Part shown: positions 9,905 through 47,827 of the stretch, piece by piece
Position numbering within the stretch: the first letter of the stretch is position 1
Layout of the letters: the number at the start of each line of letters is the position of its first letter
Source of the DNA: Prosthecobacter sp.
Lineage (GTDB): Bacteria > Verrucomicrobiota > Verrucomicrobiia > Verrucomicrobiales > Verrucomicrobiaceae
Assembly (NCBI RefSeq): GCF_034366625.1
Contig: NZ_JAXMIH010000007.1
Coordinates: 62,001-126,000 of the forward strand
Direction: 5' to 3'
Length of the DNA stretch: 64,000 bases
Position numbers and translations under genes: made by a program
The notes under the pieces: generated by a model
The model's database searches: none
Seen by the model: the letters and a program-made list of their open reading frames with translations, nothing else
Told to the model about the DNA's origin: nothing

Positions 9905-11356
9905 GTGATGTCTGCTTTCTTCTCCTCTGTCTCGCGCTCATTGTCGGTTCTCCCATGTATCTGCATGCTGTGGCTGGTCGGTTTTGGCATGGCCGCTGAG
10001 CCGATCCAACTCGATTCACGCAGCGAGTTGTTCGTGGACGAGCACCTCATCGAATCGAAGAACGGCGTGACTTTGAAGCTGCACAAGCCGCAGGCGCAGA
10101 ATGTGGCGTTGATTTGCGATGCGCCATGGGAGGGCAATACGTCGGGCTACTTCACGCTGCTTCAAGATGGCGATCTTTACCGCTGCTACTACCGAGGCTC
10201 GCATCATGGTGAGGAAGGCGGGAGGCCGAGTCAGTCAGGCGTGACCTGCTACGCGGAAAGCCGCGATGGCATCACCTGGACGAAGCCGAATCTCGGGCTG
10301 CATGAGTTTGAGGGATCGAAGGACAACAACATCACGCACATGGGCGATGGCTGCTCCACCTTTGCCCCGTTCCTCGACACGAACCCGAACTGCCCGCCCG
10401 AGTCACGCTACAAAGCGCTCGCCACCACGGGCGACAACGTCGAGCGCAAAAAGAACCCGTCCCTGCAAGCCTGGCATTCCGCCGATGGTCTGCGCTGGTC
10501 GGTGATGCGCGAAAAGCCGGTGATCACCGCAGGTTCGTTTGACTCGCAAAACACCGCGTTCTTTGACAATGAACTCGGAGCCTATCGCGCTTACTGGCGT
10601 TATTTCACCGGCGGTTATACCGATGAGCGCGGCTGGAAGCCCGCTGGTGTCCGCGCCATTCGCACAGCAACTTCGAAGGACTTCCTTTCCTGGGAAAATC
10701 AGGCCGACCTCGCCTACGGCAAGGATGCGCCAACCGTGCAGCTTTACACGAATGCCGTGCGTCCGTATGCGCGAGCGCCGCATCTATTGCTCGGCTTTCC
10801 CACGCGCTATCAGCCGAAGGGATCGCAAGTCGAGCCTGTGCTCATGACCAGCCGCGATGGCGTAAATTTCAAGCGCTGGGAAGAGCCGCTCATCCCCATC
10901 ACCGCACCCAAAGATCGTGACTGGAACCGCAGCAACTACATGACCATCGGCGTGCTCTCGCTGCCAGGAAAGCCGAACGAACTCAGCGTCTATGCCAGCG
11001 AAGCCTACTACCAAGGTCCCGGCAGCCGCATCCGCCGCTTCACCTTCCGCGTGGATGGTTTTGTCTCCGCTTCATCGGCGAAAGGCGAACTCATCACCAA
11101 GCCGCTGACCTTTGAAGGAACGAAACTCATGCTGAATCTGCTCAGCGGCGGCGAAACGCGTGTGGAAGTGCAAGATGAGGCTGGCAAAGCCATTCCAGGC
11201 TTCGCGCTCGATGACTGCACGCCACTGAAAGGCGATCTCATGGATCAAGCCGTCACCTGGAAAGGCGGCAGCCTCGCCACGCTGGCTGCAAAGCCCGTGC
11301 GGCTGAGGTTTGAGCTGCGCGGGGCTGATTTGTTCGCGTTGCAGTTTGTTCCGTGA
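9905..11356 (+). CDS. Secreted glycoside-hydrolase-like five-bladed beta-propeller protein
   Basis: 483 residues. The N-terminus has a basic stretch, a hydrophobic core (VLPCICMLWLVGFGMA) and a likely cleavage before AEP, so export is expected; ATGs at 9908 or 9965 are alternative starts. The mature protein begins QLDSRSELFVDEHL and carries blades such as CYAESRDGITWTKPNLGL, HSADGLRWS and TSRDGVNFKRW, with a C-terminal beta-sandwich. It is the closest relative of the truncated gene at the window start, sharing the FDSQN-AFFD block near the middle. The two copies flank the sialidase-like operon and the STAND gene. Catalytic residues cannot be assigned with certainty. Confidence 0.78.
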   Translation: MMSAFFSSVSRSLSVLPCICMLWLVGFGMAAEPIQLDSRSELFVDEHLIESKNGVTLKLHKPQAQNVALICDAPWEGNTSGYFTLLQDGDLYRCYYRGSHHGEEGGRPSQSGVTCYAESRDGITWTKPNLGLHEFEGSKDNNITHMGDGCSTFAPFLDTNPNCPPESRYKALATTGDNVERKKNPSLQAWHSADGLRWSVMREKPVITAGSFDSQNTAFFDNELGAYRAYWRYFTGGYTDERGWKPAGVRAIRTATSKDFLSWENQADLAYGKDAPTVQLYTNAVRPYARAPHLLLGFPTRYQPKGSQVEPVLMTSRDGVNFKRWEEPLIPITAPKDRDWNRSNYMTIGVLSLPGKPNELSVYASEAYYQGPGSRIRRFTFRVDGFVSASSAKGELITKPLTFEGTKLMLNLLSGGETRVEVQDEAGKAIPGFALDDCTPLKGDLMDQAVTWKGGSLATLAAKPVRLRFELRGADLFALQFVP

Positions 11357-11428
11357 ATCAACGCCATGGAGGCAGGAGAACGCGATGAATCGAATGCCAC
11401 TTAAATTCAACTGTCTCCACCTTCCATC

Positions 11429-12718
11429 GTGACCCCAACCACTCCTGATCTCGCCATCCGTGTCCGCAACCGAGTGATGGGGCGGTTGATGCCGTATTTG
11501 ATCCTGCTGTATGTGGTGGCGTATCTGGACCGGGTGAATGTGAGCTATGCAGCGTTGGAGATGACGGCGGATCTTGGGTTCACGGCGGAGATGTATGGGC
11601 TGGGCGCGGGGATTTTCTTTGTGGGGTATTTTTTGCTGGAGGTGCCTGGGGCGGTGATCGCGCAGCGCTGGGGCGTGCGGGTGCTGGTGTGCCGGATCAT
11701 GATCACCTGGGGCGTGCTGGCAGCGGCGATGGGATTCATCCAAAACGCGACGCAGTTTTACTGGCTGCGTTTCCTCATCGGTGCGGCGGAGGCGGGCTTT
11801 TTCCCGGCGATGATTGTGTATCTCGGGCATTGGTTCCGCGCGGCGGATCGCGGGAAGGCGGTGGCGCTGTTCATGTCAGCCATTTCACTGGCGATGGTGA
11901 TCGGTGGGCCGGTTTCGGGCGCGTTGCTAAAGCTGGACTGGCTGGGGCTGGAGGGATGGCGGTGGTTGTTCATCCTGGAAGGAATGCCGGCGGTCGTGCT
12001 GGGCATCACGAGCTGGTTTTTCCTCACGGAACGGCCTGCGGACGCGAAGTGGCTGCCGGACGATGAAAAAGCCTGGCTCGTGGCCGAACTGGAGCGCGAG
12101 CGCATGTCGCGTGAGGCCTTGCAGACTCGCAAACCGACGGTGTGGCAGGCATTGTGTGATCCGCGCGTGCTGATCTTTTCAGCGGCGTATTTCTTCGGAC
12201 TGCTGGCCTCGAACGGCCTCGGCTACTGGCTGCCGACGATGATCAAGTCGCTCTCCGGTTTCTCGAACTTCACGGTGGGGCTGCTCGTGTCGCTGCCTTA
12301 CTCGCTGGGAGTGATCGCGAAGGTGCTCGCAGGCTGGTCATCGGATCGCACGGGCGAGCGGCGCTGGCACACGGCGGGTCTGCTGCTGCTCGGTGGCGCG
12401 GGTCTCGCGGCGGTGGCGATGCTGGAGGCGCATCTCGCCTTCGCGCTGCTTTTTCTCTGCATCGCCGTGATCGGCCTCACAGGCTACACACCGAGCTTCT
12501 GGGCCTATGCAACGAGCTTCCTCGCAGGCACGGCCAATGCGGCCGCCATCGGCCTCATCAACAGCATCGGCAATCTCGGCAGCTTCGCGGGCCCGTATGC
12601 GATGGGCTGGCTGAAGGAGCACACCACGGGCTATGCGGCAGGTGTGTGGATGCTGGCAGCTTCATCGGTGATAACGGCACTGTTGGTGCTGGCTGCTCGG
12701 GGGAACCCGAAATCGTGA
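11429..12718 (+). CDS. MFS transporter, anion:cation symporter (sugar-acid/phthalate) type
   Basis: 429 residues from a GTG start at 11429, 72 bases after the propeller gene. The N-terminus has the family signature R-x-MPYLILLYVVAYLDRVNVSYA, a pattern shared by ACS-family permeases for galactonate, glucarate, tartrate and phthalate. Twelve hydrophobic segments are visible, with a long cytoplasmic loop near residues 195-235 (ERPADAKWLPDDEKAWL), a sequence style common in this subfamily. It is an inner-membrane proton symporter, probably importing the acid sugar used by the dehydratase/aldolase set nearby. Substrate is inference from neighbours. Confidence 0.88.
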   Translation: MTPTTPDLAIRVRNRVMGRLMPYLILLYVVAYLDRVNVSYAALEMTADLGFTAEMYGLGAGIFFVGYFLLEVPGAVIAQRWGVRVLVCRIMITWGVLAAAMGFIQNATQFYWLRFLIGAAEAGFFPAMIVYLGHWFRAADRGKAVALFMSAISLAMVIGGPVSGALLKLDWLGLEGWRWLFILEGMPAVVLGITSWFFLTERPADAKWLPDDEKAWLVAELERERMSREALQTRKPTVWQALCDPRVLIFSAAYFFGLLASNGLGYWLPTMIKSLSGFSNFTVGLLVSLPYSLGVIAKVLAGWSSDRTGERRWHTAGLLLLGGAGLAAVAMLEAHLAFALLFLCIAVIGLTGYTPSFWAYATSFLAGTANAAAIGLINSIGNLGSFAGPYAMGWLKEHTTGYAAGVWMLAASSVITALLVLAARGNPKS

Positions 12719-38435: not shown

Positions 38436-38486
38436 ATCGAGTTTTCCAACTCGATCCTCCGACCGAACTGGAAAGTTCGGTTTACG
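38431..38486. repeat. Palindromic repeat between convergent genes
   Basis: Left arm 38431-38456 and right arm 38461-38486 are largely complementary over 26 bases and begin CGTA; each arm also holds its own small hairpin (CGAGTTTTCCAACTCG and CGAACTGGAAAGTTCG). It overlaps the stop codons of both the DMFase-like gene (38435) and the DUF1501 gene (38482, minus). Design matches the GTAG-type elements elsewhere. Possible bidirectional terminator. Confidence 0.65.
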
Positions 38487-39831
38487 CGAGGATGTCCTTC
38501 GCCACCTCACCATGCACGTCGGTGAGGCGGAAATTGCGTCCCGCATACCGATACGTCAGCCGCTCGTGATTGATGCCTAGGAGGTGAAGCACTGTGGCAT
38601 GCAAATCATGCGTGGTGATGATGCCGGTTTCGGCGGTATCGCCCATGGCGTTAGTGCTGCCATAAGTAAAACCGCCTTTCACGCCGCCGCCGGCCATCCA
38701 CATGGTGTAGCCGCCGCCGTTGTGACCGCGGCCGTTGTAGGGTTCGTTGTCGTAACCGCTGCCGCGGCCGAATTCGCCGCCCCAAATGATGAGCGTGTCC
38801 TTGAGCATGTCGCGCTGCTTCAGATCGGCGATGAGACCGGCGATGGGTTTGTCGATGCTGGTGGCCTGACGAGTGATGCCCTCGCGAAGCTGCTGGTGAT
38901 GGTCCCAGCCGGTGCTGGTAAGCTGGATGAAGCGCACGCCTTTCTCGGCCATGCGGCGGGCCATGAGGCATTGGGTGCCGAAGCGCTCGGTTTCGCCATC
39001 ATCGAGGCCGTACATGTCGCGGATGTGCTGGGGTTCTTGGTCGAGATCCAGCACGGCAGGCACGCTGGTCTGCATTTTGTAGGCGAGTTCGTAGCTCTGG
39101 ATGACACCTTCGAGTTCCGGGTTGCCCGGATCGCCCGAGAGTAGCCTGCGATTGGCTTTTTGGATGAATTCGATCTGCTTCCGCTGTTGCGCGTCGCTGA
39201 GGCGGCCATTCGAGAGATCGGGAACGCCGCCACCGCCGCTGCTGAGACGCGTGCCTTGAAAGCTGGCGGGCAGGAAGGCCGAGCCGTAGTTCATCGCACC
39301 GCCGGTGTCGGCCACGGGATTGATGGTGACAAAGCCGGGCAGATCCTCCGCTTCGGTGCCGAGGCCATAGACGATCCACGCGCCCATTGAGGGCCGCACA
39401 AACGTCTCGCTGCCGATGTGCAGCGCCACGGTGGCCATCTGATGCGCGTTGGTGCGTGTCTGCATGCCGTTGAGCAGGCAGAGGTCGTCCGCGTGTTTTG
39501 AAAGCTCGGGGAAGGCTTCGGAAATCATGATTCCGCTCTTGCCGCGCGGTTTGAACTCAAACGCCGAGCCCATGTACTTCTGAATCTTCTGCTCCTCGGC
39601 TTTCGCGAGTTCCGGTTTGTAATCAAACGTGTCCAGATGGCTCGGCCCGCCCTGCATGAACATGAAGATCACCCGCTTCGCCTTCGGCGCGAAGTGCGGT
39701 GGCTTCGGTGCAAGAGGATTGATCGTCTTCGGCGGCGCGGCGGCATTCGCCCACTGCTGATGCAGCGCATTGAAAGCCAGCCAGCCGAAACCAGCGCTGG
39801 TGGATTGGAGGATGGAGCGGCGTGTGGTCAT
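38482..39831 (-). CDS. DUF1501 domain-containing protein (Tat-exported, sulfatase-like fold)
   Basis: 449 residues from the ATG at 39831. The N-terminus MTTRRSILQSTSAGFGWLAF is a twin-arginine signal. MFMQGGPSHLDTFDYKP, GRGSGYDNEPYNGRGHNGGGY and ITTHDLHATVLHLLGI are the hallmark blocks of DUF1501, related to alkaline-phosphatase/sulfatase folds. These proteins are nearly always paired with DUF1549/DUF1553 proteins, as here (39934-41925), and are found almost only in this superphylum. No enzymatic activity has been proven. A palindromic repeat lies in the 102-base gap to its partner. Confidence 0.9.
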   Translation of the reverse strand: MTTRRSILQSTSAGFGWLAFNALHQQWANAAAPPKTINPLAPKPPHFAPKAKRVIFMFMQGGPSHLDTFDYKPELAKAEEQKIQKYMGSAFEFKPRGKSGIMISEAFPELSKHADDLCLLNGMQTRTNAHQMATVALHIGSETFVRPSMGAWIVYGLGTEAEDLPGFVTINPVADTGGAMNYGSAFLPASFQGTRLSSGGGGVPDLSNGRLSDAQQRKQIEFIQKANRRLLSGDPGNPELEGVIQSYELAYKMQTSVPAVLDLDQEPQHIRDMYGLDDGETERFGTQCLMARRMAEKGVRFIQLTSTGWDHHQQLREGITRQATSIDKPIAGLIADLKQRDMLKDTLIIWGGEFGRGSGYDNEPYNGRGHNGGGYTMWMAGGGVKGGFTYGSTNAMGDTAETGIITTHDLHATVLHLLGINHERLTYRYAGRNFRLTDVHGEVAKDILA

Positions 39832-39849
39832 GGCAGTTGAATGGGATTC

Positions 39850-39920
39850 ACCACAGAGTTCACAGAGGAACACAGAGGTTCTGAATTCTGATCTCTGTGC
39901 TTCTCTGTGAACTCTGTGGT
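39850..39920. repeat. Palindromic repeat ACCACAGAG-type, 28-base arms
   Basis: Left arm 39850-39877 and right arm 39893-39920 pair at all but two or three positions; both ends read ACCACAGAGTTCACAGAG outward. It lies between the DUF1501 and DUF1549/DUF1553 genes. A second, related element begins at 45916 (with ACCACAGAG at the ends but a different middle). The two form a dispersed family distinct from the GTAG-type repeats. Confidence 0.75.
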
Positions 39921-39933
39921 TAAAAATGGCTGA

Positions 39934-41925
39934 TTAGAAAACATACCTGAACTCCGCTGTGCCCAGAAGGGCTTGCACGAGCGTTTGGAGGTCCAAGTCC
40001 CTCGCATCGGCGATTTCTTCGAGACTTGGTTCGCGGCCCAGAACGAGCTTGTAGGCCGTTTTGAGGTCTTTCCCGGCTCTGTCGGCGATCTCGGCGGCGA
40101 GTTCCTCGACGAGCGGGTTGTTCATGAAAAAGAGAGCCTGTGGAGCGACGGTGGTGACATCGCGCTGGCCTTTGATTTGCGTGGGGCCGGGGAAGTCGAA
40201 GGTGCTGAAGAGTTCGGGGATGTTGTCGCGGACGACGGGGAGGAAGATGGTGCGATACGGATCTTCGACGCTCAGCAGGCCGCGCGTGATGCCGTGGCGG
40301 CCTTTGCCACCCGAGCCGGCGACTTGGATGCCTTCGGGGCGGTCGAAGGTGAGTTTGCCGGCGAGTTGCAGCAAGGTGTCGCGCAGCGGTTCGAGTTCGA
40401 GGCGCTTCGGGTTCATGCGCCAGCGGAGTTTGTTGCCGGCGTCGGGATGTTCGGGGTTGCCGGTGGTGGCGAGTCGGTAGGCGCGGCTCAGCATCATCAC
40501 GCGGATCATTTTCTTCACGCTCCAGCCGTTTTCGACAAAACGAATCGCCAAATGATCGAGCAGCTCGGGATGCGTGGGATCAGCGCCGGTGTGGCCGAAG
40601 TCATCGGGCGTGCGCACGAGGCCTTCGCCGAAAAGATGCTGCCAGAGGCGGTTCACCATGACGCGGGAGGTGAGCGGATGCGTGGGCTGCGTCATCCATT
40701 GCGCGAGCTCCATGCGGCCCGATGATTTGGGTGGAATGACCGGCATCGGCGGCAGCGCGGGCATTTTCATTTTGCCACGATCCGGCGCGGATTCGCGCTC
40801 ATAGGGATCACCGCCGACGGCGAGTTCGCAGTCCTTGATCTCGCCATCAATGACGCCCATGCAGAAGTGCGGATCGTGGTCGTAGCGGATGGTTCCTTTG
40901 GGATTGCCGAGTTCGCGGAGGTCATCCATCGAGTGAATGCCCGCAGGCAGTTTCGTGGGCGGGCCGACGGGTTCATCAAGCGCAGTGGGGAGATCGACCA
41001 GCGCTTGCGGGCTCACATAACCACCGCTGACTCCATCGTTGCGGTTCGGCGTGCCGCTGAGGGTGCGGCTGCTGTAAAAGATGCCCGCCAGCGCATAGTA
41101 GTCCTTCTGGCTCACGGGCTCGGTTTTGTGATCGTGACAGCGCGCGCAGGCCAGCGTGAGGCCGAGGAAGGCGCGGGAGACGACGTCGATCTGGTCATCG
41201 ACCTGATCGAGCACGAACTGCTCGTAGTTGCCCTCCTGCACGTTCATGCTGCCGAGCGCCAACATGCCGGTGCCGACGATCTGATCGCGGCGCTGGAGCA
41301 CGGTCTTCGCAGGAATCAGATCTCCGGCGATCTGCTCGGCGACGAAGCGGTTGTAGGGTTTGTCGGCGTTGAGCGAATCAATGACCCAGTCGCGATAGCG
41401 AGCGGCATACAGAAACGGTGCGTTCCAAACGCGGCCGATGCTGTCAGCGTAACGAACGACATCGAGCCAATGCCGCGCCCAGCGCTCGCCGAAGCGCTCG
41501 GATTGGAGAAAAGCGTCCACGACTTTGGCAAAGGCGGCGTCATCAGGAGAAGGATCGCGCAGGAAGGCGTCGATCTCGGTTTGGGAAGGCGGCAGGCCGC
41601 GCAGATCGAAGGACGCTCGACGGATGAGGATGGCGCGTGGTGCATCGCCGATGGGGCGGAGGTTTTCTTTTTCAAGTCGCGCCAGGATGAAACGGTCGAG
41701 GTCGTCTTTGGGCCACGCAGCGTCTTTCGTGGAGGGAATAGGATGACGGAAGATGCGCTGGTAGGACCAGGGCGTGGGGTTTTCGTATTTCTCGGCGGCT
41801 TGGGCTGGAAAGAGGCCAAGGAGACAAAAAATCAGAAGGATGGCAGTAGAATGAGGGCAGTAGAATTTTTCAGTTTCAACCATTCTGCTGCCACCATTCT
41901 GCTGCCATTTGGATTGGGTTCTCAT
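39934..41925 (-). CDS. DUF1549/DUF1553 domain protein (PSD1-type), exported
   Basis: 663 residues from the ATG at 41925, which overlaps the upstream pectate lyase stop by ATGA; an ATG at 41883 is the other candidate. Hydrophobic signal segment STAILLIFCLLGLFPAQA. DUF1549 is recognised by LDRFILARLEKENL, RRASFDLRGLPPS, ERWARHWLDVVRYADS and CARCHDHK (a c-type heme-like CxxCH); DUF1553 follows with HPLTSRVMVNRLWQHLFGEGLVRTPDDFG and LELEPLRDTLL. Role in polysaccharide use is inferred from its pectate lyase and DUF1501 neighbours. Its N-terminus is encoded within a palindromic repeat (41840-41908). Confidence 0.87.
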   Translation of the reverse strand: MRTQSKWQQNGGSRMVETEKFYCPHSTAILLIFCLLGLFPAQAAEKYENPTPWSYQRIFRHPIPSTKDAAWPKDDLDRFILARLEKENLRPIGDAPRAILIRRASFDLRGLPPSQTEIDAFLRDPSPDDAAFAKVVDAFLQSERFGERWARHWLDVVRYADSIGRVWNAPFLYAARYRDWVIDSLNADKPYNRFVAEQIAGDLIPAKTVLQRRDQIVGTGMLALGSMNVQEGNYEQFVLDQVDDQIDVVSRAFLGLTLACARCHDHKTEPVSQKDYYALAGIFYSSRTLSGTPNRNDGVSGGYVSPQALVDLPTALDEPVGPPTKLPAGIHSMDDLRELGNPKGTIRYDHDPHFCMGVIDGEIKDCELAVGGDPYERESAPDRGKMKMPALPPMPVIPPKSSGRMELAQWMTQPTHPLTSRVMVNRLWQHLFGEGLVRTPDDFGHTGADPTHPELLDHLAIRFVENGWSVKKMIRVMMLSRAYRLATTGNPEHPDAGNKLRWRMNPKRLELEPLRDTLLQLAGKLTFDRPEGIQVAGSGGKGRHGITRGLLSVEDPYRTIFLPVVRDNIPELFSTFDFPGPTQIKGQRDVTTVAPQALFFMNNPLVEELAAEIADRAGKDLKTAYKLVLGREPSLEEIADARDLDLQTLVQALLGTAEFRYVF
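41840..41908. repeat. Palindromic repeat inside the 5' coding end of the DUF1549 gene
   Basis: Left arm 41840-41870 and right arm 41878-41908 (loop 7) are complementary at about 25 of 31 positions. Each arm contains two tandem copies of a unit like GGCAGCAGAATGGT. It covers the codons for roughly residues 6-28 of the DUF1549 protein as started at 41925, so the N-terminal part of the signal peptide is repeat-derived. Confidence 0.65.
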
Positions 41926-43439
41926 TTCGTGCCTCCTTTCGCTTTCAGCCACGCGCTTAGCGCTTTCACGTTCTGCGTGAAGTCGAGGCTGTAGATCACG
42001 CCGCCGGTGGGCTTTTGCTTTTTGCCGTTCGCATCGCGCATGACGCCGCGTTCATCGTCGGTGACGGGCCAGGAGCCGTTGGGGGCTTGTTCTTTGAGGA
42101 TGGTGGCGATGTCGGCGTCGGTGGGCGGGGAGGACCAGCGTTCTTTTTCGGTGCGGGGGAAGGTGACTTTTTCTCCACGGGCGATCTGGCTGCCGGTGGC
42201 TTGCAGGGCGTCGAGTTCGCTGTCCCAGACCCAGCCGTAGTTGGAGGAGGCTTTTTTGTCGGAGTAGGTCAGCTCGAAGCCTTTGCCGCCGGGGCCGCGC
42301 TCGAAGTAGAGGGGCTTGTTGGTATTGAGTTCGTAGAAGCGGGCGAGCTTGTTGCCGGGCAGCAACACCGTGCGCAGATACGGGATGGCTTTGGCGACGG
42401 GCGGGAGATATTTTTTATCACCCGTGGCGGCGGTGAGCTTCAGCAGCGCCCACATGGCGGCCTGGCTTTCGCGACCGCTGATGGCGGTGGGCTCGAACTG
42501 GCGGCTCCACACGGGCTGCATCTCGGCGTTGTATTGCTGGCCCCAGGCGGGCTGCGGATCGGGCATCTGGGCGGTGACGAGGAAATCGCCGCCGCGTTTC
42601 GCCGCGTCGAGGCATTTTTGATCGCCGCGAAGCTCCCAGGCGAGCAGCAGCGTGCTCATGAGCGTGGCGTGCGTGTTGTCATTGAGCACATAGCAGCCGC
42701 TGAAGTCCTTCGGCCACTTGCGCGGCCAGTCGGCGGGGTAGTTGCCGGGCTTGATCGGATACTTGTCCGCAGGCGGAGGCGATGTGGGCGCGTCGTCGAA
42801 ATTCGCGCTCCAACCGCCCGCCGGATACTGCGTCATGATGATCGTGTGCAGCGCGAAGTCGGCGGCTTCTTTGATCTCTGCATCCTTGCCGCCGAGCGCG
42901 TGATCCACACGCACGAGCAGGCGCGTGGCGGCCTGGGAGACATCGTCGTCATAAGTGGAGTAGTTGTTTTTTTCCTGACGACGCCAGTTATGCCAGCCAG
43001 CCTCGCGGGTGGCGGTTTGCGGTCGTGGAATGAGCTTTCCGTCCGAATCACGGCGATAGAGCTTCGATTCGCGGCCTTTGGCATCGAAGTGGCCCGAGTA
43101 GTCCCAACCACCCGAGGCGAGCTGCGTGCGCGAAACACATCGAGCGGCCTCCACGGCGGCTGCCAGGCACTTTTCATCCTTCGTGGCCTCATAAGCATCC
43201 AGCATCGCCATCGCGACGGCAGGCGTCCCCGGCGGCTGAATCCAGACCGTGTCCGGGCCGGGAATGCCTTCCGCTTCACGCAGCGTGAAGTCAGCGCTGT
43301 AGCGATAGACGTAGCCGCCGTGGGCCGCCGCTTTGGCGTGGTAGAAGGAGACGGCCTTGATCAATACCGAACTCACCTCGGCTGGCGAAGCCGCACCAAC
43401 TTGGAAGGCGACTGACAGGAAAATGAAAATGCGGTGCAT
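41922..43439 (-). CDS. Pectate lyase (PL10-like), secreted
   Basis: 505 residues with signal peptide MHRIFIFLSVAFQVGA. The alpha/alpha toroid of polysaccharide lyase family 10 is suggested by ASGGWDYSG, MTQYPAGGWSANFDD, YVLNDNTHATLMSTLLLA, PAWGQQYNAEMQPVWSRQFEP and AISGRES, matching the usual order in Pel10-type enzymes. It would cleave polygalacturonate by beta-elimination outside the cytoplasm. Start of an operon with the DUF1549/DUF1553 gene (ATGA overlap) and DUF1501. Nine bases follow the small membrane protein gene. Sequence is longer at the C-terminus than the core domain. Confidence 0.82.
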   Translation of the reverse strand: MHRIFIFLSVAFQVGAASPAEVSSVLIKAVSFYHAKAAAHGGYVYRYSADFTLREAEGIPGPDTVWIQPPGTPAVAMAMLDAYEATKDEKCLAAAVEAARCVSRTQLASGGWDYSGHFDAKGRESKLYRRDSDGKLIPRPQTATREAGWHNWRRQEKNNYSTYDDDVSQAATRLLVRVDHALGGKDAEIKEAADFALHTIIMTQYPAGGWSANFDDAPTSPPPADKYPIKPGNYPADWPRKWPKDFSGCYVLNDNTHATLMSTLLLAWELRGDQKCLDAAKRGGDFLVTAQMPDPQPAWGQQYNAEMQPVWSRQFEPTAISGRESQAAMWALLKLTAATGDKKYLPPVAKAIPYLRTVLLPGNKLARFYELNTNKPLYFERGPGGKGFELTYSDKKASSNYGWVWDSELDALQATGSQIARGEKVTFPRTEKERWSSPPTDADIATILKEQAPNGSWPVTDDERGVMRDANGKKQKPTGGVIYSLDFTQNVKALSAWLKAKGGTK

Positions 43440-43447
43440 CGGAAATT

Positions 43448-44101
43448 CTAGTTCTCTGAGTTGTTATCCTTAGCGACGAAAACGCGAAAAATGCTCCCAA
43501 CGTCCTCTTTGCGATGTGTTGGCAGATTACTCGGAAAAAAATGAGGGAACCAAGTGTTACCACACCAATACTGTATGCGAGACTCACCAACATAGCCGCA
43601 TGGGAATGCGGGATCCGACGTGGCTGCAAATTTTAGCGGTGTTTTTTTGTAGCCGAGCAAAGCCTGGACTCGATCAGGAGGAAATTGGTTCATTTCGGCA
43701 ACAAAGGTCACTCCACGCAGTATGTGCCTTGAGCCATCAGTGGCGATGAGAACGTTTGGGGGGGCCACGCGATCCAGTGTCAGTGGTGATTCGATCAAAG
43801 GGCGATTGTCTTTAAGTGCTGGCTGTCCAAGAAGTTTAAAACCTGCCAAATGACAGCCTATTATAACAACTGCGACAAGCAATGGTGCCGCAGCCAACAA
43901 CCTCGGCCTTAATCTTAGCGATAGCCGAACTCCCCAAAAGGCGACAAAACCAAGCCAGACGATTTCTGCCATGAGAATCATGCCCAGCACCAAGATCGCC
44001 AGAGAAATCACCAACGGTGCTATGCTGCGCCCCGAAAGCCTTTCGCCAATCAACAGAATGATTAGCAAGGCGAATGCAATCAAGATGATGACGCCGTCCA
44101 T
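43448..44101 (-). CDS. Membrane protein of unknown function
   Basis: 217 residues. Three hydrophobic segments in the first 90 residues (VIILIAFALLIILLI, LVISLAILVLGMILMAEIVWLGFVAFW, LLAAAPLLVAVVIIG) are followed by a soluble domain of about 120 residues with no recognised motif except two well separated cysteine pairs (FPCG, YWCG). Base composition is lower in GC than its neighbours (hand-counted lines near 52-55%), so it may be a recent arrival. It lies 32 bases from the M56 peptidase gene, eight bases before the pectate lyase, all on the minus strand. I cannot assign a function. Confidence 0.6.
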   Translation of the reverse strand: MDGVIILIAFALLIILLIGERLSGRSIAPLVISLAILVLGMILMAEIVWLGFVAFWGVRLSLRLRPRLLAAAPLLVAVVIIGCHLAGFKLLGQPALKDNRPLIESPLTLDRVAPPNVLIATDGSRHILRGVTFVAEMNQFPPDRVQALLGYKKTPLKFAATSDPAFPCGYVGESRIQYWCGNTWFPHFFPSNLPTHRKEDVGSIFRVFVAKDNNSEN

Positions 44102-44133: not shown

Positions 44134-45894
44134 TTACTCCGTCTTGATGCCCACGTTCTTGTTCCCGTTGTCGCGGACGGCATCGACGATTTCGTGGAGG
44201 GATTTGAGCGGGGTGTCGGGATCGCCGGAGACGACGACTTTGGCACCGGGGTGGTCGGGGAGGAAGGTGCTGAGGTGGCCGCGGATGCCGCTGAGGGGCT
44301 GCTTTTCGCCGTTGATCAGGACCGTGTCGCCGCTGGCGGCGACGTGCATGGTGATGACCTCACTGCTTTTCACGGAGGCGGAGTCGCCTTCGCCTTTGCG
44401 TGTCTTGGTGCCACCTTCACCGTCGCGTGAACCCGTGCGAGGTTTTTCGCCATCACGCTCGCCAGTGCGCGGCTTCTCACCATCGCGTTCGCCGGTTCTG
44501 GGTTTCTCGCCGTCCTTCATGCCGGGTTTGCGGGAGCCTTCGCCATCGCCGCTGCCAGGTTTCTTGACTCCGCCTTCACCATCGCGGGCACCGGGCTTCT
44601 TGGTGCCTTCGCCGTCACCGGTGCCGGGCTTTTTGACTCCGCCTTCGCCATCGCGAGCGCCGGGTTTCTTGGTGCCGCCGTCACGTTCAGCGGAAGGTTT
44701 GCCGCCCTCGCGTTCGCCATCACCGGTTTTCTTCATGCCGCCTTCGCCTTCGCGGGTGGCGGGCTTTTTGCCAGGAGTCTCGGAGTCGCCGGACGCGGCG
44801 GTTTTTTTGAGGGTTTCACCTTCGCGGACTTTCGGCGGGACTTCTTTTTCCTGCGCACGGGCAGTGGTGAAAGAGTAACAAACGAGGACGCTGAGCGTGA
44901 GGACGAGCAGCGCGTGGAGCCAGGGCTGGCGGGTGGTTGGGTGCGTGATCATGAGAATGCGTTGACGCAGGGTGGGATGGTTACGCACACATGGAGCCAA
45001 CCCTGCAATGGCCGGTGGTGCGAAAAAGGTCTCTTGTATGCGGAGGAGGGTGTGTCCGTAGTCCAGACGCTCGGCGGGCGAGAGCAGCGCGAGCGCCCCG
45101 GCATCGCAACGCAGCTCACGGTCCGCCTGGAAGCGTGACACAACAAACCACACGAGCGGATTGAACCAATGCAGCGCCTGCACGGCGATGGCGGCCCAGT
45201 TCCAGAGCAGATCACGCTGCTTCACATGCAGCAACTCATGCAGCACGACATGGCGCAGGCTGCGGTCATCAAAACGCGACTCCCAGTCCTCCGGCAGCAG
45301 CAGCTTTGGCCTGCGGACGCCGACCATGGCTGGCGTGGTGCCTCCTGGCATGAGGAGGATGCTCACAGGCATTTTGACACCAGCTTTCTGCGCGAGGCTG
45401 GCAACGAGGGCGCGAAGGTATGGGGATGTGGCGCGAGGACGACGGCGCAGAACGGCGTCGAAGAGGCGCTGGCGAAGAAGGGCAGCGAGGATCACGGAAG
45501 CAGCACCCGTGAGCCAGATCGCGAGGAGGATCAGGTTTCCAGAAAGGATTCCCGCAGATTCAGAAAACCCGCCGATTGATTCAGAAGCATTCATCTGCGG
45601 GTTTTCTGAATCTGTGGGAAAAACGGATTCAGAGCCATGCACAGGGGCGATTATATTCGTGGACGAGACAGTCTGGACCACCTCCTCAGCCTGAAGCCAG
45701 CCGCCGAGGCCGAAGCCTGCGGGAATGAAGGCGGGCAGCATGAGCTTCATACCGACGAGCATCCAAAGGCCGATGCGCCACGCGGGACTCAAGCGCGTAC
45801 CGAGCATCAGGCGCAGGCCGAGCACAGCGAGAATCAAGATGCTGGCCTCAAGGGAGGTGCGCAGGAGCCAGTGGAGGAGGGCGTCGGTGCTCAT
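44134..45894 (-). CDS. BlaR1-like M56 metallopeptidase with repeat linker and ExbD/TolR-like C-terminal domain
   Basis: 586 residues. Four transmembrane segments surround the zinc protease site: HELLH at 219-223 with Glu260 in FQADRELRCD, the M56/BlaR1 signature. After the last membrane helix (about 328-346) comes a 165-residue linker of short charged repeats (DGEGGVKKPG and DGEKPRTGER units). The final 75 residues (ITMHVAASGDTVLINGEKQ, then VVVSGDPDTPLKSLHEIVDAV, NKNVGIKTE) have the pattern of the ExbD/TolR periplasmic domain. The penicillin-binding sensor domain of BlaR1 is absent. BlaI lies upstream on the same strand. Presumably senses an envelope signal and cleaves BlaI; the ligand is unknown. 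Confidence 0.8.
   Translation of the reverse strand: MSTDALLHWLLRTSLEASILILAVLGLRLMLGTRLSPAWRIGLWMLVGMKLMLPAFIPAGFGLGGWLQAEEVVQTVSSTNIIAPVHGSESVFPTDSENPQMNASESIGGFSESAGILSGNLILLAIWLTGAASVILAALLRQRLFDAVLRRRPRATSPYLRALVASLAQKAGVKMPVSILLMPGGTTPAMVGVRRPKLLLPEDWESRFDDRSLRHVVLHELLHVKQRDLLWNWAAIAVQALHWFNPLVWFVVSRFQADRELRCDAGALALLSPAERLDYGHTLLRIQETFFAPPAIAGLAPCVRNHPTLRQRILMITHPTTRQPWLHALLVLTLSVLVCYSFTTARAQEKEVPPKVREGETLKKTAASGDSETPGKKPATREGEGGMKKTGDGEREGGKPSAERDGGTKKPGARDGEGGVKKPGTGDGEGTKKPGARDGEGGVKKPGSGDGEGSRKPGMKDGEKPRTGERDGEKPRTGERDGEKPRTGSRDGEGGTKTRKGEGDSASVKSSEVITMHVAASGDTVLINGEKQPLSGIRGHLSTFLPDHPGAKVVVSGDPDTPLKSLHEIVDAVRDNGNKNVGIKTE
44400..44790 (-). repeat. Tandem short repeats encoding the linker of the M56 peptidase
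   Basis: Degenerate 15- to 30-base units, read on the minus strand, encode GARDGEGGVKKPG-like and DGEKPRTGER peptides; three almost identical copies of the latter sit at 44410-44520. Such arrays change length by slippage, so linker length may vary between strains. Coordinates are approximate. Confidence 0.7.
45551..45618. repeat. Palindromic repeat within the M56 peptidase coding region
   Basis: Left arm 45551-45572 and right arm 45597-45618 are complementary at 21 of 22 bases. The element is read in frame as residues near 92-115 (SENPQMNASESIGGFSESAG), in the extracytoplasmic loop between the second and third membrane segments. It has the look of a palindromic element inserted without breaking the gene. 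Confidence 0.7.
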
Positions 45895-45915
45895 GGTTGG
45901 ATGCGGTGTGTTGGT

Positions 45916-45994
45916 TTAACCACAGAGACACGATGGACGCAGAGGTCGGAATTCTGAGTGCTGTTCTCTGTGTTCATCGTGCCTCTGTGGTTAA
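45916..45994. repeat. Palindromic repeat, CCACAGAG-type, 29-base arms
   Basis: Left arm 45916-45944 and right arm 45966-45994 pair at about 26 of 29 positions, with ends TTAACCACAGAG. It fills most of the 126-base gap between blaI (ends 46021) and the M56 peptidase gene (starts 45894). Related to the element at 39850. It may reduce read-through from blaI or shape mRNA stability. Confidence 0.75.
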
Positions 45995-46020
45995 AAAGAA
46001 TGGAGTGGTGGCGCGTAAGG

Positions 46021-46425
46021 CTACTTTTTGAGCTTCTTCTCGGCTTCGGCGAGCATCTGACGAAGGGCGGTGAGGTCATCTTTCGACACTTCTTCCCGCT
46101 CCATCATCCCCGCTACGAATGGCGTGAGGCGGCCGTTGAAGACGCGATCGAGGAAACTGACGCTCTCCTCATGCTGACACTGATCCTGGGCCACGGCGGG
46201 CGAGTAGCGGAACTCGCGGCCCACAGCCTCGACCGCCAGGGCGCCTTTGTCGGTAAGGCGGCGAATGAGCGACTGCACTGTGCGCGGCTTCCAAGCCAGA
46301 CGGCCTTCGAGATCCTTTACCACTTCGGCCAGAGTGCTCGTGCCGCGCTCCCAAAGCACCTTCATCACCGTCCATTCGGCGTCGGAGATTTTGGGGGAGG
46401 GTGGTGTTTCGGGACGGCGTGCCAT
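46021..46425 (-). CDS. blaI: BlaI/MecI/CopY family transcriptional repressor
   Basis: 134 residues, the standard size. An N-terminal winged helix (ISDAEWTVMKVLWERGTSTLAEV, then KPRTVQSLIRRLTDKGAL) is followed by the helical dimerisation region ending SKDDLTALRQMLAEAEKKLKK. These repressors bind dyads and are released when a BlaR1-type protease is activated, and the M56 gene is downstream on the same strand. Two dyads of GGATTACA type sit 7-46 bases upstream of its start, so it most likely represses itself and its partner, and perhaps the divergent murA. Resistance to beta-lactams is not implied: no beta-lactamase is present. Confidence 0.9.
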   Translation of the reverse strand: MARRPETPPSPKISDAEWTVMKVLWERGTSTLAEVVKDLEGRLAWKPRTVQSLIRRLTDKGALAVEAVGREFRYSPAVAQDQCQHEESVSFLDRVFNGRLTPFVAGMMEREEVSKDDLTALRQMLAEAEKKLKK

Positions 46426-46431
46426 GGTGGT

Positions 46432-46471
46432 GGATTACAGATGTGATCCACGGATTACGCATGTAATCCGT
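46432..46471. promoter_or_regulatory. Two adjacent dyads, probable BlaI operators, between blaI and murA
   Basis: Dyad 1 at 46432-46449 reads GGATTACA-GATGTGATCC (one mismatch pair). Dyad 2 at 46450-46471 has perfect 9-base arms ACGGATTAC and GTAATCCGT around GCAT. Both contain the ACA/TGT-like core seen in MecI/BlaI sites. They are 7 bases upstream of blaI and about 94 upstream of the murA ATG. A minus-strand -35-like TTGCCA at 46474-46479 would put the blaI -10 inside dyad 2. Confidence 0.7.
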
Positions 46472-46564: not shown

Positions 46565-47827
46565 ATGGAAAAACTCATCGTTCACGGCGGCGCTCCGCTG
46601 AAAGGTCGCATCAACATCAGCGGATCGAAGAACTCGTCGCTGCCCATCCTCGCTGCCACGCTGCTCACGAAGGACACCTGCACCATTCGACGTGTGCCTG
46701 ACCTCTCGGACACGAATTACATGCTGCAAATTCTTGGCGAACTCGGTGCCGAGGTCGAACGTGCTAGCGGTGTCGTCGTCGTCAAAGCAGAGAAGATCAA
46801 ATCCGTCGCGCCTTACGACCTCGTGCGCAAAATGCGCGCTTCCATCTGCGTGCTCGGACCGCTCACAGGCCGTTTGAAAAAATGTACCGTCTCCTTGCCC
46901 GGTGGCTGCGTCATCGGCGACCGTCCGGTTGATTTGCATCTCAAGGGCCTCGAAGCGCTCGGCGCACAGATCACCGTGGAAGGCGGCGACATCTTTGTGA
47001 ACGCCAAAAAAGGCTTCAAAGGCGGCCCGATGAACCTCATGGGCAAACATGGCTCCACCGTGCTCGGCACCGACAACGTCATGATGGCCGCCGTGCTCGC
47101 CAAAGGCACCACCATCATCGAAGGCGCTGCCGCCGAGCCGGAAGTCGAAGACCTTGCCAATTTCCTCATCAAAATGGGTGCGAAGATTCAAGGCGCGGGC
47201 ACCAACCGCATCGTCATCGAAGGCGTGAAGGAACTCCACGGCGCGGAGCACATCGTCATCCCGGATCGCATCGAGGCCGGAACCTTCCTCGTGGCCGGGG
47301 CGATGCTTGGTGACGGCGTCACTTTGAAGCGTGTCATGCCGGAGCACATGAAATCCGTCACCGATGCGATGATCAAATGCGGCTTCCCGTTGGAGATCAC
47401 GAAGGACAGCATCACCGTGCGCCCGAACCCGAACGCCAAGGGCTTCGACCTCACCACGCTCTGCTATCCCGGCTTCCCCACCGACATGCAGGCGCAGTTC
47501 TGCGCTCTCGCCTGCGTCATCAATGACACCAGCACGATCACCGAGACCATCTTCCCGCAGCGCTTCATGCATGTGGCTGAAATGAACCGCATGGGCACCA
47601 AGATCGAGATTCAAGGCGCAACCGCGCGCATTCGTGGCGGTGAGAAGATGAAAGGCGCACCCGTCATGGCTTCCGATCTGCGTGCTTCTGCGGCGCTCGT
47701 GCTCGCCGGTCTCGTTGCCGAGGGTAAAACCGAGATCAATCGTCTCTACCACATTGATCGTGGCTACGAGCACCTGGATGACAAACTGGCGGCGCTCGGT
47801 GCGCAGTTGGAACGCGTGCAAGGTTAA
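46565..47827 (+). CDS. murA: UDP-N-acetylglucosamine 1-carboxyvinyltransferase
   Basis: 420 residues from the ATG at 46565; the frame is open upstream but across the BlaI operators. It makes the first committed step of peptidoglycan synthesis, transferring enolpyruvate to UDP-GlcNAc in the cytoplasm. [25 protein letters not shown] and [15 protein letters not shown] match MurA, and [18 protein letters not shown] holds the active-site cysteine to which fosfomycin binds. The 3' end converges with the LysR gene and overlaps it by four bases. It is divergent from blaI, across a 139-base gap with two operator-like dyads, so it may be under BlaI control. Confidence 0.95.

Follow-up and report, generated by a model that had tools for sequence, protein, structure and literature searches.

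Switches of the BlaR1 type are best known for sensing antibiotics. In Staphylococcus aureus, passages of PMC9834060 describe how the EL1 loop of BlaR1 occupies the receptor groove until it is displaced by a beta-lactam, and how SpsB cuts the protein after its last transmembrane (TM) helix and frees the sensor, a cut that is read there as turnover and not as signalling. A different kind of periplasmic recognition is described in parts of PMC10907165, where ExbD dimers take one TonB strand at the edge of their sheet and the substitution L132Q in ExbD abolishes D-box binding. Here we describe a locus in a 64,000-nucleotide stretch of the genome of Prosthecobacter sp. (NCBI RefSeq assembly GCF_034366625.1, contig NZ_JAXMIH010000007.1, positions 62,001 to 126,000), hereafter the window, in which an M56 protease of the BlaR1 type is joined in one polypeptide to a domain of the ExbD/TolR type. 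By computation, this architecture and the fold of its tail are found together with operator-like sites and a conserved gene order. We propose that the locus may encode a proteolytic switch of the BlaI/M56 kind in which the receptor has been exchanged, and assign this explanation as a whole a probability of about one half.

The fusion gene, taken from the open reading frame (ORF) list and its translation, encodes 586 amino acids and lies on the reverse strand of the window (44134..45894, stop codon included), as do all features below unless stated otherwise. The original prediction, made for the stretch 44134-46471, which also takes in blaI (46021-46425) and two palindromes (46432-46469), had read its N-terminal part as an M56 protease with the motif HELLH and the Glu of DREL. 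This assignment is well founded, as Pfam Peptidase_M56 (PF05569) matches residues 10-316 (44947..45867) with 175.8 bits against a cut-off of 31, a region that comprises TM1-3 and the zinc protease fold in the structural model. The zinc motif HELLH (residues 219-223; 45226..45240) aligns with HEYAH of S. aureus BlaR1, and the candidate third zinc ligand, E260 of DREL (45115..45117), aligns with the Glu of 'DNE' in the same protein and is the same residue in 21 of the 21 rows of alignment A2; the M56 zinc protease signature of HExxH and a distal Glu is hence present in the protein. The full-length model (mean predicted local distance difference test score, pLDDT, of 61.7) contains four TM helices, a confident protease core and a folded C-terminal domain (residues 513-585). 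The NCBIfam model blaR1_generic matches only residues 17-341 and, with 125.3 bits, misses its cut-off of 400 bits, and no penicillin-binding or transpeptidase Pfam domain is listed for the fusion protein at E-values up to 10. The same genome encodes a second M56 protein in a 938-amino acid frame (L176:2213-5026; G000:C5:418491), whose adjoining upstream gene appears BlaI-like by eye; its M56 region is followed by neither an ExbD tail nor any further Pfam domain.

The C-terminal domain (residues 505-586; 44137..44382) matches the Pfam family ExbD (PF02472) with 30.7 bits against a cut-off of 25.4, and the last 79 residues alone score 33.3 bits (E 5.9e-8). The alignment used to predict the structure of the tail consisted of 27 fused tails alone, which kept stand-alone ExbD sequences from steering the predicted fold (pLDDT 89.6, predicted template modelling score 0.79). 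Foldseek comparison of this model with the PDB returned ExbD or TolR periplasmic domains at all of ranks 1-7, the top match being ExbD in complex with TonB (PDB identifier 8p9r; E 4.6e-5), and a second structural aligner superimposed the tail on 8p9r with a Z-score of 10.4 over 74 residues at 2.4 Å, the best unrelated chain reaching a Z-score of 7.5. The earlier suggestion that an ExbD/TolR-type tail replaces the penicillin-binding domain thus holds for both family and fold; a structural likeness of the tail to ExbD/TolR, on which that suggestion was made to depend, was sought and found. The Pfam match spans profile positions 45-126 of 128 and leaves the first 44 positions, which hold the TM helix, uncovered. 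An N-terminal TM helix with the conserved Asp of ExbD/TolR was not found, the stretch before the domain being disordered in the model, and the tail, devoid of the ExbD membrane helix, is therefore a receptor part and cannot be a motor subunit. No ExbB or TolQ gene is present among the flanking window genes run through Pfam and NCBIfam, the other loci having been scanned only with window-derived queries.

Two positions of the tail bear on its function. With E. coli ExbD numbering placed on the tail alignment, the position that we take to be L132 is occupied by Ile in 27 of 27 tails and, in the wider set, by I, L or F; this correspondence requires the PDB profile alignment to be extended by one residue. 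The position presumed to be Tyr112 of the ExbD dimer interface is hydrophobic in the tails, mostly L, F or Y as read by eye. The second of these would suit a tail that acts as a dimerization or scaffold module holding two M56 protomers together, the signal coming from elsewhere (the EL1 loop, the membrane or protease turnover), and the sources describe, in the parts concerned, solved ExbD periplasmic domains as dimeric (PMC10771500, PMC10907165) and S. aureus BlaR1 as a dimer (PMC9834060). However, the tail sits where BlaR1 has its receptor domain, the edge-strand position for peptide capture stays hydrophobic and a long linker is needless for plain dimerization, so that a purely structural role of the tail appears unlikely.

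The charged linker of the original prediction is present between the protease and the tail (163 residues, 348-510; 44365..44853). It is rich in glycine, with 39 Lys and Arg, 33 Asp and Glu and 40 Gly residues, and residues 338-510 are predicted to be disordered (pLDDT under 50). Across 43 proteins the linker has a length of 71-241 residues (median 129), a charged fraction of 0.36-0.58 and a net charge near zero. A disordered, near charge-balanced linker of such variable length gives no support to the spring-like tether that had been imagined for it. TM4 (44854..44925), as placed by the model and a motif scan, ends in a signal-peptidase-I-like A-R-A (residues 345-347; 44854-44862), and an A-x-A ends TM4 in 32 of 36 distinct fused windows versus 18 of 67 M56 proteins without ExbD, a control set that is mostly Firmicutes and Planctomycetes and hence not taxonomically matched. 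Frames devoid of HExxH were left out of the linker set, namely the full-length L035 and the cut fragments L047, L049, L057 and L256. The motif, along with the SpsB cut that frees the S. aureus sensor (in the passages of PMC9834060 cited above), could also be taken to mean that signal peptidase I cuts after TM4 to release an effector, the freed linker-ExbD part competing with the real ExbD/TolR in the periplasm. This is very unlikely, as the S. aureus cut is itself read as turnover and the excess of A-x-A is seen against an unmatched control.

Directly upstream of the fusion gene and on the same strand lies blaI (46021..46425), which encodes a BlaI/MecI/CopY-type repressor of 134 amino acids with a PF03965 winged-helix domain (116.6 bits against a cut-off of 22.6; E 9.8e-34) and similarity to MecI (PDB identifier 1sd6; E 8.3e-18). 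The pairing of the sensor with BlaI, on which the original prediction relied, extends beyond this locus, as blaI is directly upstream in 17 of the 18 distant fusions fetched, the 18th being truncated by a contig end. Just upstream of blaI, a palindrome search identified two tandem palindromes of the type GGATTACANNNGTAATCC, which we regard as putative operator 1 (GGATTACATGCGTAATCC; 46452..46469) and putative operator 2 (GGATCACATCTGTAATCC; 46432..46449). Only these two sites are present within one mismatch in the whole 6.6-Mb genome, a reversed-pattern control gave zero sites, and four further sites occur at two mismatches (L180-L183). A wider regulon was considered and set aside, since the only sites within one mismatch genome-wide are the two local ones. 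Among loci with at least 150 nucleotides of upstream sequence, two such sites (up to three mismatches) lie within about 60 nucleotides of the blaI start in 34 of 34 (29 distinct), and 15 of 18 distant loci have one or more sites of a shorter pattern (up to two mismatches), every site being just upstream of blaI; L247 has no such site, and the upstream part is missing in L250 and L256. With blaI thus placed behind two conserved tandem palindromes, its autorepression through them is very likely. The residues N101-F102 of MecI, presumably its cleavage site, align with G-M in the BlaI of the window; cleavage of this BlaI by the M56-ExbD protein is consistent with the data and, judged from the sequences, has a good probability.

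A search with the fusion protein gave matches in 40 of 56 related genomes, its own included. We surveyed 288 genomes of the order with a profile built from 16 diverse fused tails; of the 48 same-genus genomes listed, 39 have a strong tail (E ≤1.7e-29). Frames of at least 350 amino acids are available for 33 of these 39, and M56 is present in the same frame in all 33, as established by the protein search in 22, by the linker set in G168 and G187 and by a later frame check in nine. In six genus genomes the frame that contains the tail is short and in most cases on a broken contig, the M56 part of L203 is split over two frames, and nine of the 48 have no strong tail, the M56 gene running off the contig in two of them (G010 and G025). 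Outside the genus but within the order, at least 20 genomes contain such a long frame (E 1.2e-8 or better); 18 of these were fetched and all 18 have both M56 and ExbD, the other two (G036 and G219) being examined separately, and a 401-amino acid frame of the order genome G373 was left out of the counts. Beyond the order, the matches listed with profile A3 (387 genomes of the phylum) or profile A1 (286 genomes of the class) include no strong hit whose frame reaches 450 amino acids, and none of four mid-sized frames checked there (317-405 amino acids; L218, L221, L223 and L230) contains M56. The search for M56-ExbD fusions in other Verrucomicrobiota that had been recommended therefore shows the fusion to be recurrent within the order, with none found outside it among the frames checked. 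A chance fusion or an assembly error is ruled out by the recurrence of a single long M56-ExbD frame across many genomes together with the fold of the tail. Among the matches listed, no description of an M56-ExbD fusion was recognised in the open-licence literature.

The more divergent members retain the domain in varied settings. Three of them (L058, L060 and L061) are rows of profile A3 and match it by construction, whereas profile A1, built with no distant tails, recovers the domain (E ≤0.01, 16-101 bits) in 11 of the 13 distant frames and misses only L241 and L246. Pfam ExbD scores 27.4 bits in L060 (above the cut-off) and 20.1 bits in L061 (below it), and gives no match in L058. In distant members the ExbD domain can sit mid-protein between charged repeats, and in L060 and L061 EF-hands are present at the C-terminus of the M56 protein, after a second charged repeat stretch. 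In a tree of M56 sequences, the fused proteins fall into two groups, of 40 rows (100/100) and seven rows (82/92), the junction of which is left unsettled by the tree; the larger group includes five rows labelled unfused, which are cut or frameshifted contigs.

The sensor gene is closely followed on the same strand by a 217-amino acid ORF (43448..44101), a pectic-acid-lyase-like (PL10-like) gene (41922..43439) and genes assigned by Pfam to PSCyt2/PSD1 (DUF1549/DUF1553; 39934..41952) and DUF1501 (38482..39873). The 217-amino acid ORF has no Pfam or NCBIfam match, and a comparison with 26 related loci gave no relative at E 1e-6. The PL10-like protein (PF09492, 49 bits, cut-off 22) has a signal-peptide-like start by eye and misses the NCBIfam pectate lyase cut-off, and the DUF1501 protein has a start that by eye resembles a twin-arginine translocation (Tat) signal. 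Of the distinct genus loci that have downstream sequence, 19 in all, 18 contain the PL10-like gene there, 14 PSCyt2/PSD1 and 13 DUF1501, which is a fragment in one of them. PSCyt2/PSD1 followed by DUF1501 on the same strand recurs in 11 of the 18 distant fusions, seven of which share only 31-35% identity in M56, and in L177. In the genome of the window, DUF1501 shows an extreme expansion for one family of unknown function, with 95 matches.

No beta-lactamase or PBP2a gene is present among the neighbours identified, and the conserved output is not a beta-lactamase. The downstream exported genes are probably controlled by the switch, and the products of the operon probably serve the use of an organic substrate; parts of PMC5615132 tie PSCyt genes to carbohydrate use by context while calling their function unknown. 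An output of proteins with signal-like starts is better supported than the stimulus of envelope tension or peptidoglycan contact proposed in the original prediction, which is a guess.

On the other side of blaI lies murA (46565..47827, forward strand; TIGR01072, 524 bits), a divergent neighbour, and the putative operators of the window are located in the intergenic region shared with it. A murA gene is beside blaI in 17 of 29 distinct loci and absent as a neighbour in 12. Its presence, and the peptidoglycan binding that passages of PMC10771500 report for the periplasmic domains of ExbD and TolR (for ExbD via glycan chains), would fit an envelope sensor in which the ExbD domain rests on peptidoglycan glycan and lost or strained contact activates the protease, so that the cell-wall state is reported. 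The operators, however, keep to blaI even at loci without murA, none of the conserved downstream genes is a known cell-wall gene and a disordered linker of 71-241 residues suits no calibrated tether; we accordingly see little likelihood of such a sensor. As for murA itself, it was rejected as the regulated target because the operators and the operon persist where it is not a neighbour, which makes it an adjoining gene whose co-control, if any, would come from its position alone.

A candidate partner for the receptor domain is suggested by stand-alone ExbD genes. The stand-alone ExbD of this genome with the greatest similarity to the fused tails (C5; 35.4 bits with the tail profile) stands in the order DUF1501-ExbB-ExbD, an order also seen in four of five other genus loci fetched (L260-L263). 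The rows are located at L257:7498-10525, L260:5081-7864, L261:7769-10708, L262:4394-7366 and L263:7739-10528, and they represent one orthologous arrangement, not five independent ones. Pfam confirms ExbB in L257 and L260, and in the other loci it was assigned from a shared start. In L266 the ExbD and its preceding gene are present with no DUF1501 match, and in L264 and L265, from another genus, no DUF1501 is found beside ExbD. The arrangement suggests cooperation between DUF1501 systems and Exb motors, which would offer a partner for the receptor domain. Other genes are also seen around these ExbD loci. A divergent PSCyt1/PSCyt3/PSD2-PSD5 gene and a DUF1552 gene adjoin the row in L260, and a TPR protein gene comes after it in L261. 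Around another ExbD gene of the genome of the window, a secretin-TPR protein is encoded on the opposite strand and a TonB_2 protein adjoins the ExbD (L258:372-2990 and 10804-12087).

The capture of the D-box and the contact with glycan described for ExbD, the EL1 loop and SpsB cut described for BlaR1 and the A-x-A at the end of TM4 together lead us to favour a receptor for a periplasmic strand or glycan, with clipping as turnover. In the switch that we propose, the M56 protein would be an inner-membrane protein whose zinc protease faces the cell interior, and the disordered linker after TM4 would carry the ExbD/TolR-type domain into the periplasm. In the absence of a signal, BlaI would occupy the two tandem operators and repress its own operon. 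Engagement of a periplasmic ligand by the ExbD domain would free the protease, BlaI would be cut and the operon derepressed, yielding more of the switch together with the exported PL10-like, PSCyt2/PSD1 and DUF1501 proteins, while signal peptidase may clip the protein after TM4 as turnover. The foremost candidate for the ligand, put forward tentatively and by analogy, is a peptide strand in extended form, contributed by a partner of an ExbBD-type system and bound in the way that ExbD takes the D-box of TonB, and glycan would be the second choice. More speculative still, and rather doubtful, is the idea of a motor part turned receptor, in which the ExbD domain would read the same periplasmic partner as the DUF1501-linked ExbBD motor, the PSCyt2/PSD1-DUF1501 machinery would be switched on by its own state and clipping at TM4 would reset or cap the signal.

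Several observations weigh against the proposed switch. The sequence profile of the tail has ExbD as its top PDB match, though at weak E-values (0.27 and 0.65), and the EL1 loop of the M56 part has no conserved strand and is poorly conserved in alignment A2, for which reason EL1 was dropped as an internal D-box mimic. In the full-length ortholog L035 (genome G002), HExxH is gone via a short in-frame gap, which means that not every genome has an intact protease. The tail also evolves faster than the protease, the ratio of non-synonymous to synonymous differences (pN/pS) being 0.43 over 22 tails versus 0.20 over 18 protease stretches, and the ratio of the corresponding substitution rates (dN/dS) exceeds 1 in some pairs; the sequences indicate that the tail is under purifying selection overall, less strict than that on the protease, as is expected of a receptor. 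The downstream gene order is incomplete in places: five of the 19 genus loci are without PSCyt2 and six without DUF1501, partly because the regions end, and seven of the 18 distant fusions are without PSCyt2-DUF1501 directly downstream on the same strand, three of them (L243, L245 and L255) hitting the contig edge there. The abundance of DUF1501 in the genome means that a single adjacency tells little and only repeated gene order carries weight.

The conserved ExbD-bearing lineage indicates that the receptor end of BlaR1-type switches is exchangeable and points to periplasmic peptide or glycan sensing. PSCyt2/PSD1 and DUF1501 are described in parts of PMC5615132 as common in Verrucomicrobiota and Planctomycetota and of unknown function, and one such set of genes is brought within reach of experiment by a dedicated switch whose operator-like sites are clear. 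If the idea of a motor part turned receptor were true, it would define a receptor class unrelated to antibiotics for BlaI/M56 switches and give a regulatory handle on the abundant planctomycete-type cytochrome and DUF1501 genes.

In comparison with known systems, the locus resembles the BlaR1/MecR1 and BlaI/MecI pairs of S. aureus and B. licheniformis in its M56 HExxH...E signature, in the four TM helices of the model and the domain after TM4, and in the adjacent BlaI repressor with palindromic sites beside blaI. It differs from them in that an ExbD/TolR domain on a long disordered linker takes the place of the penicillin-binding domain, and PSCyt2/PSD1 and DUF1501 lie downstream, the neighbours identified including neither a beta-lactamase nor PBP2a. 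The tail shares the fold, strand order and hydrophobic L132 position of the periplasmic domains of E. coli ExbD/TolR (PDB identifiers 8p9r, 8vgd and 5by4), but unlike these proteins it is devoid of the TM helix bearing the proton-path Asp, is fused to a protease and has no ExbB/TolQ among the neighbours identified. A regulator for a PSCyt2/PSD1 gene has a parallel in RB10049/RB10051 of Rhodopirellula baltica, for which it is suggested in passages of PMC2754498; the regulator of that pair is an extracytoplasmic function (ECF) sigma factor, whereas in the window it would be a BlaI/M56 switch.

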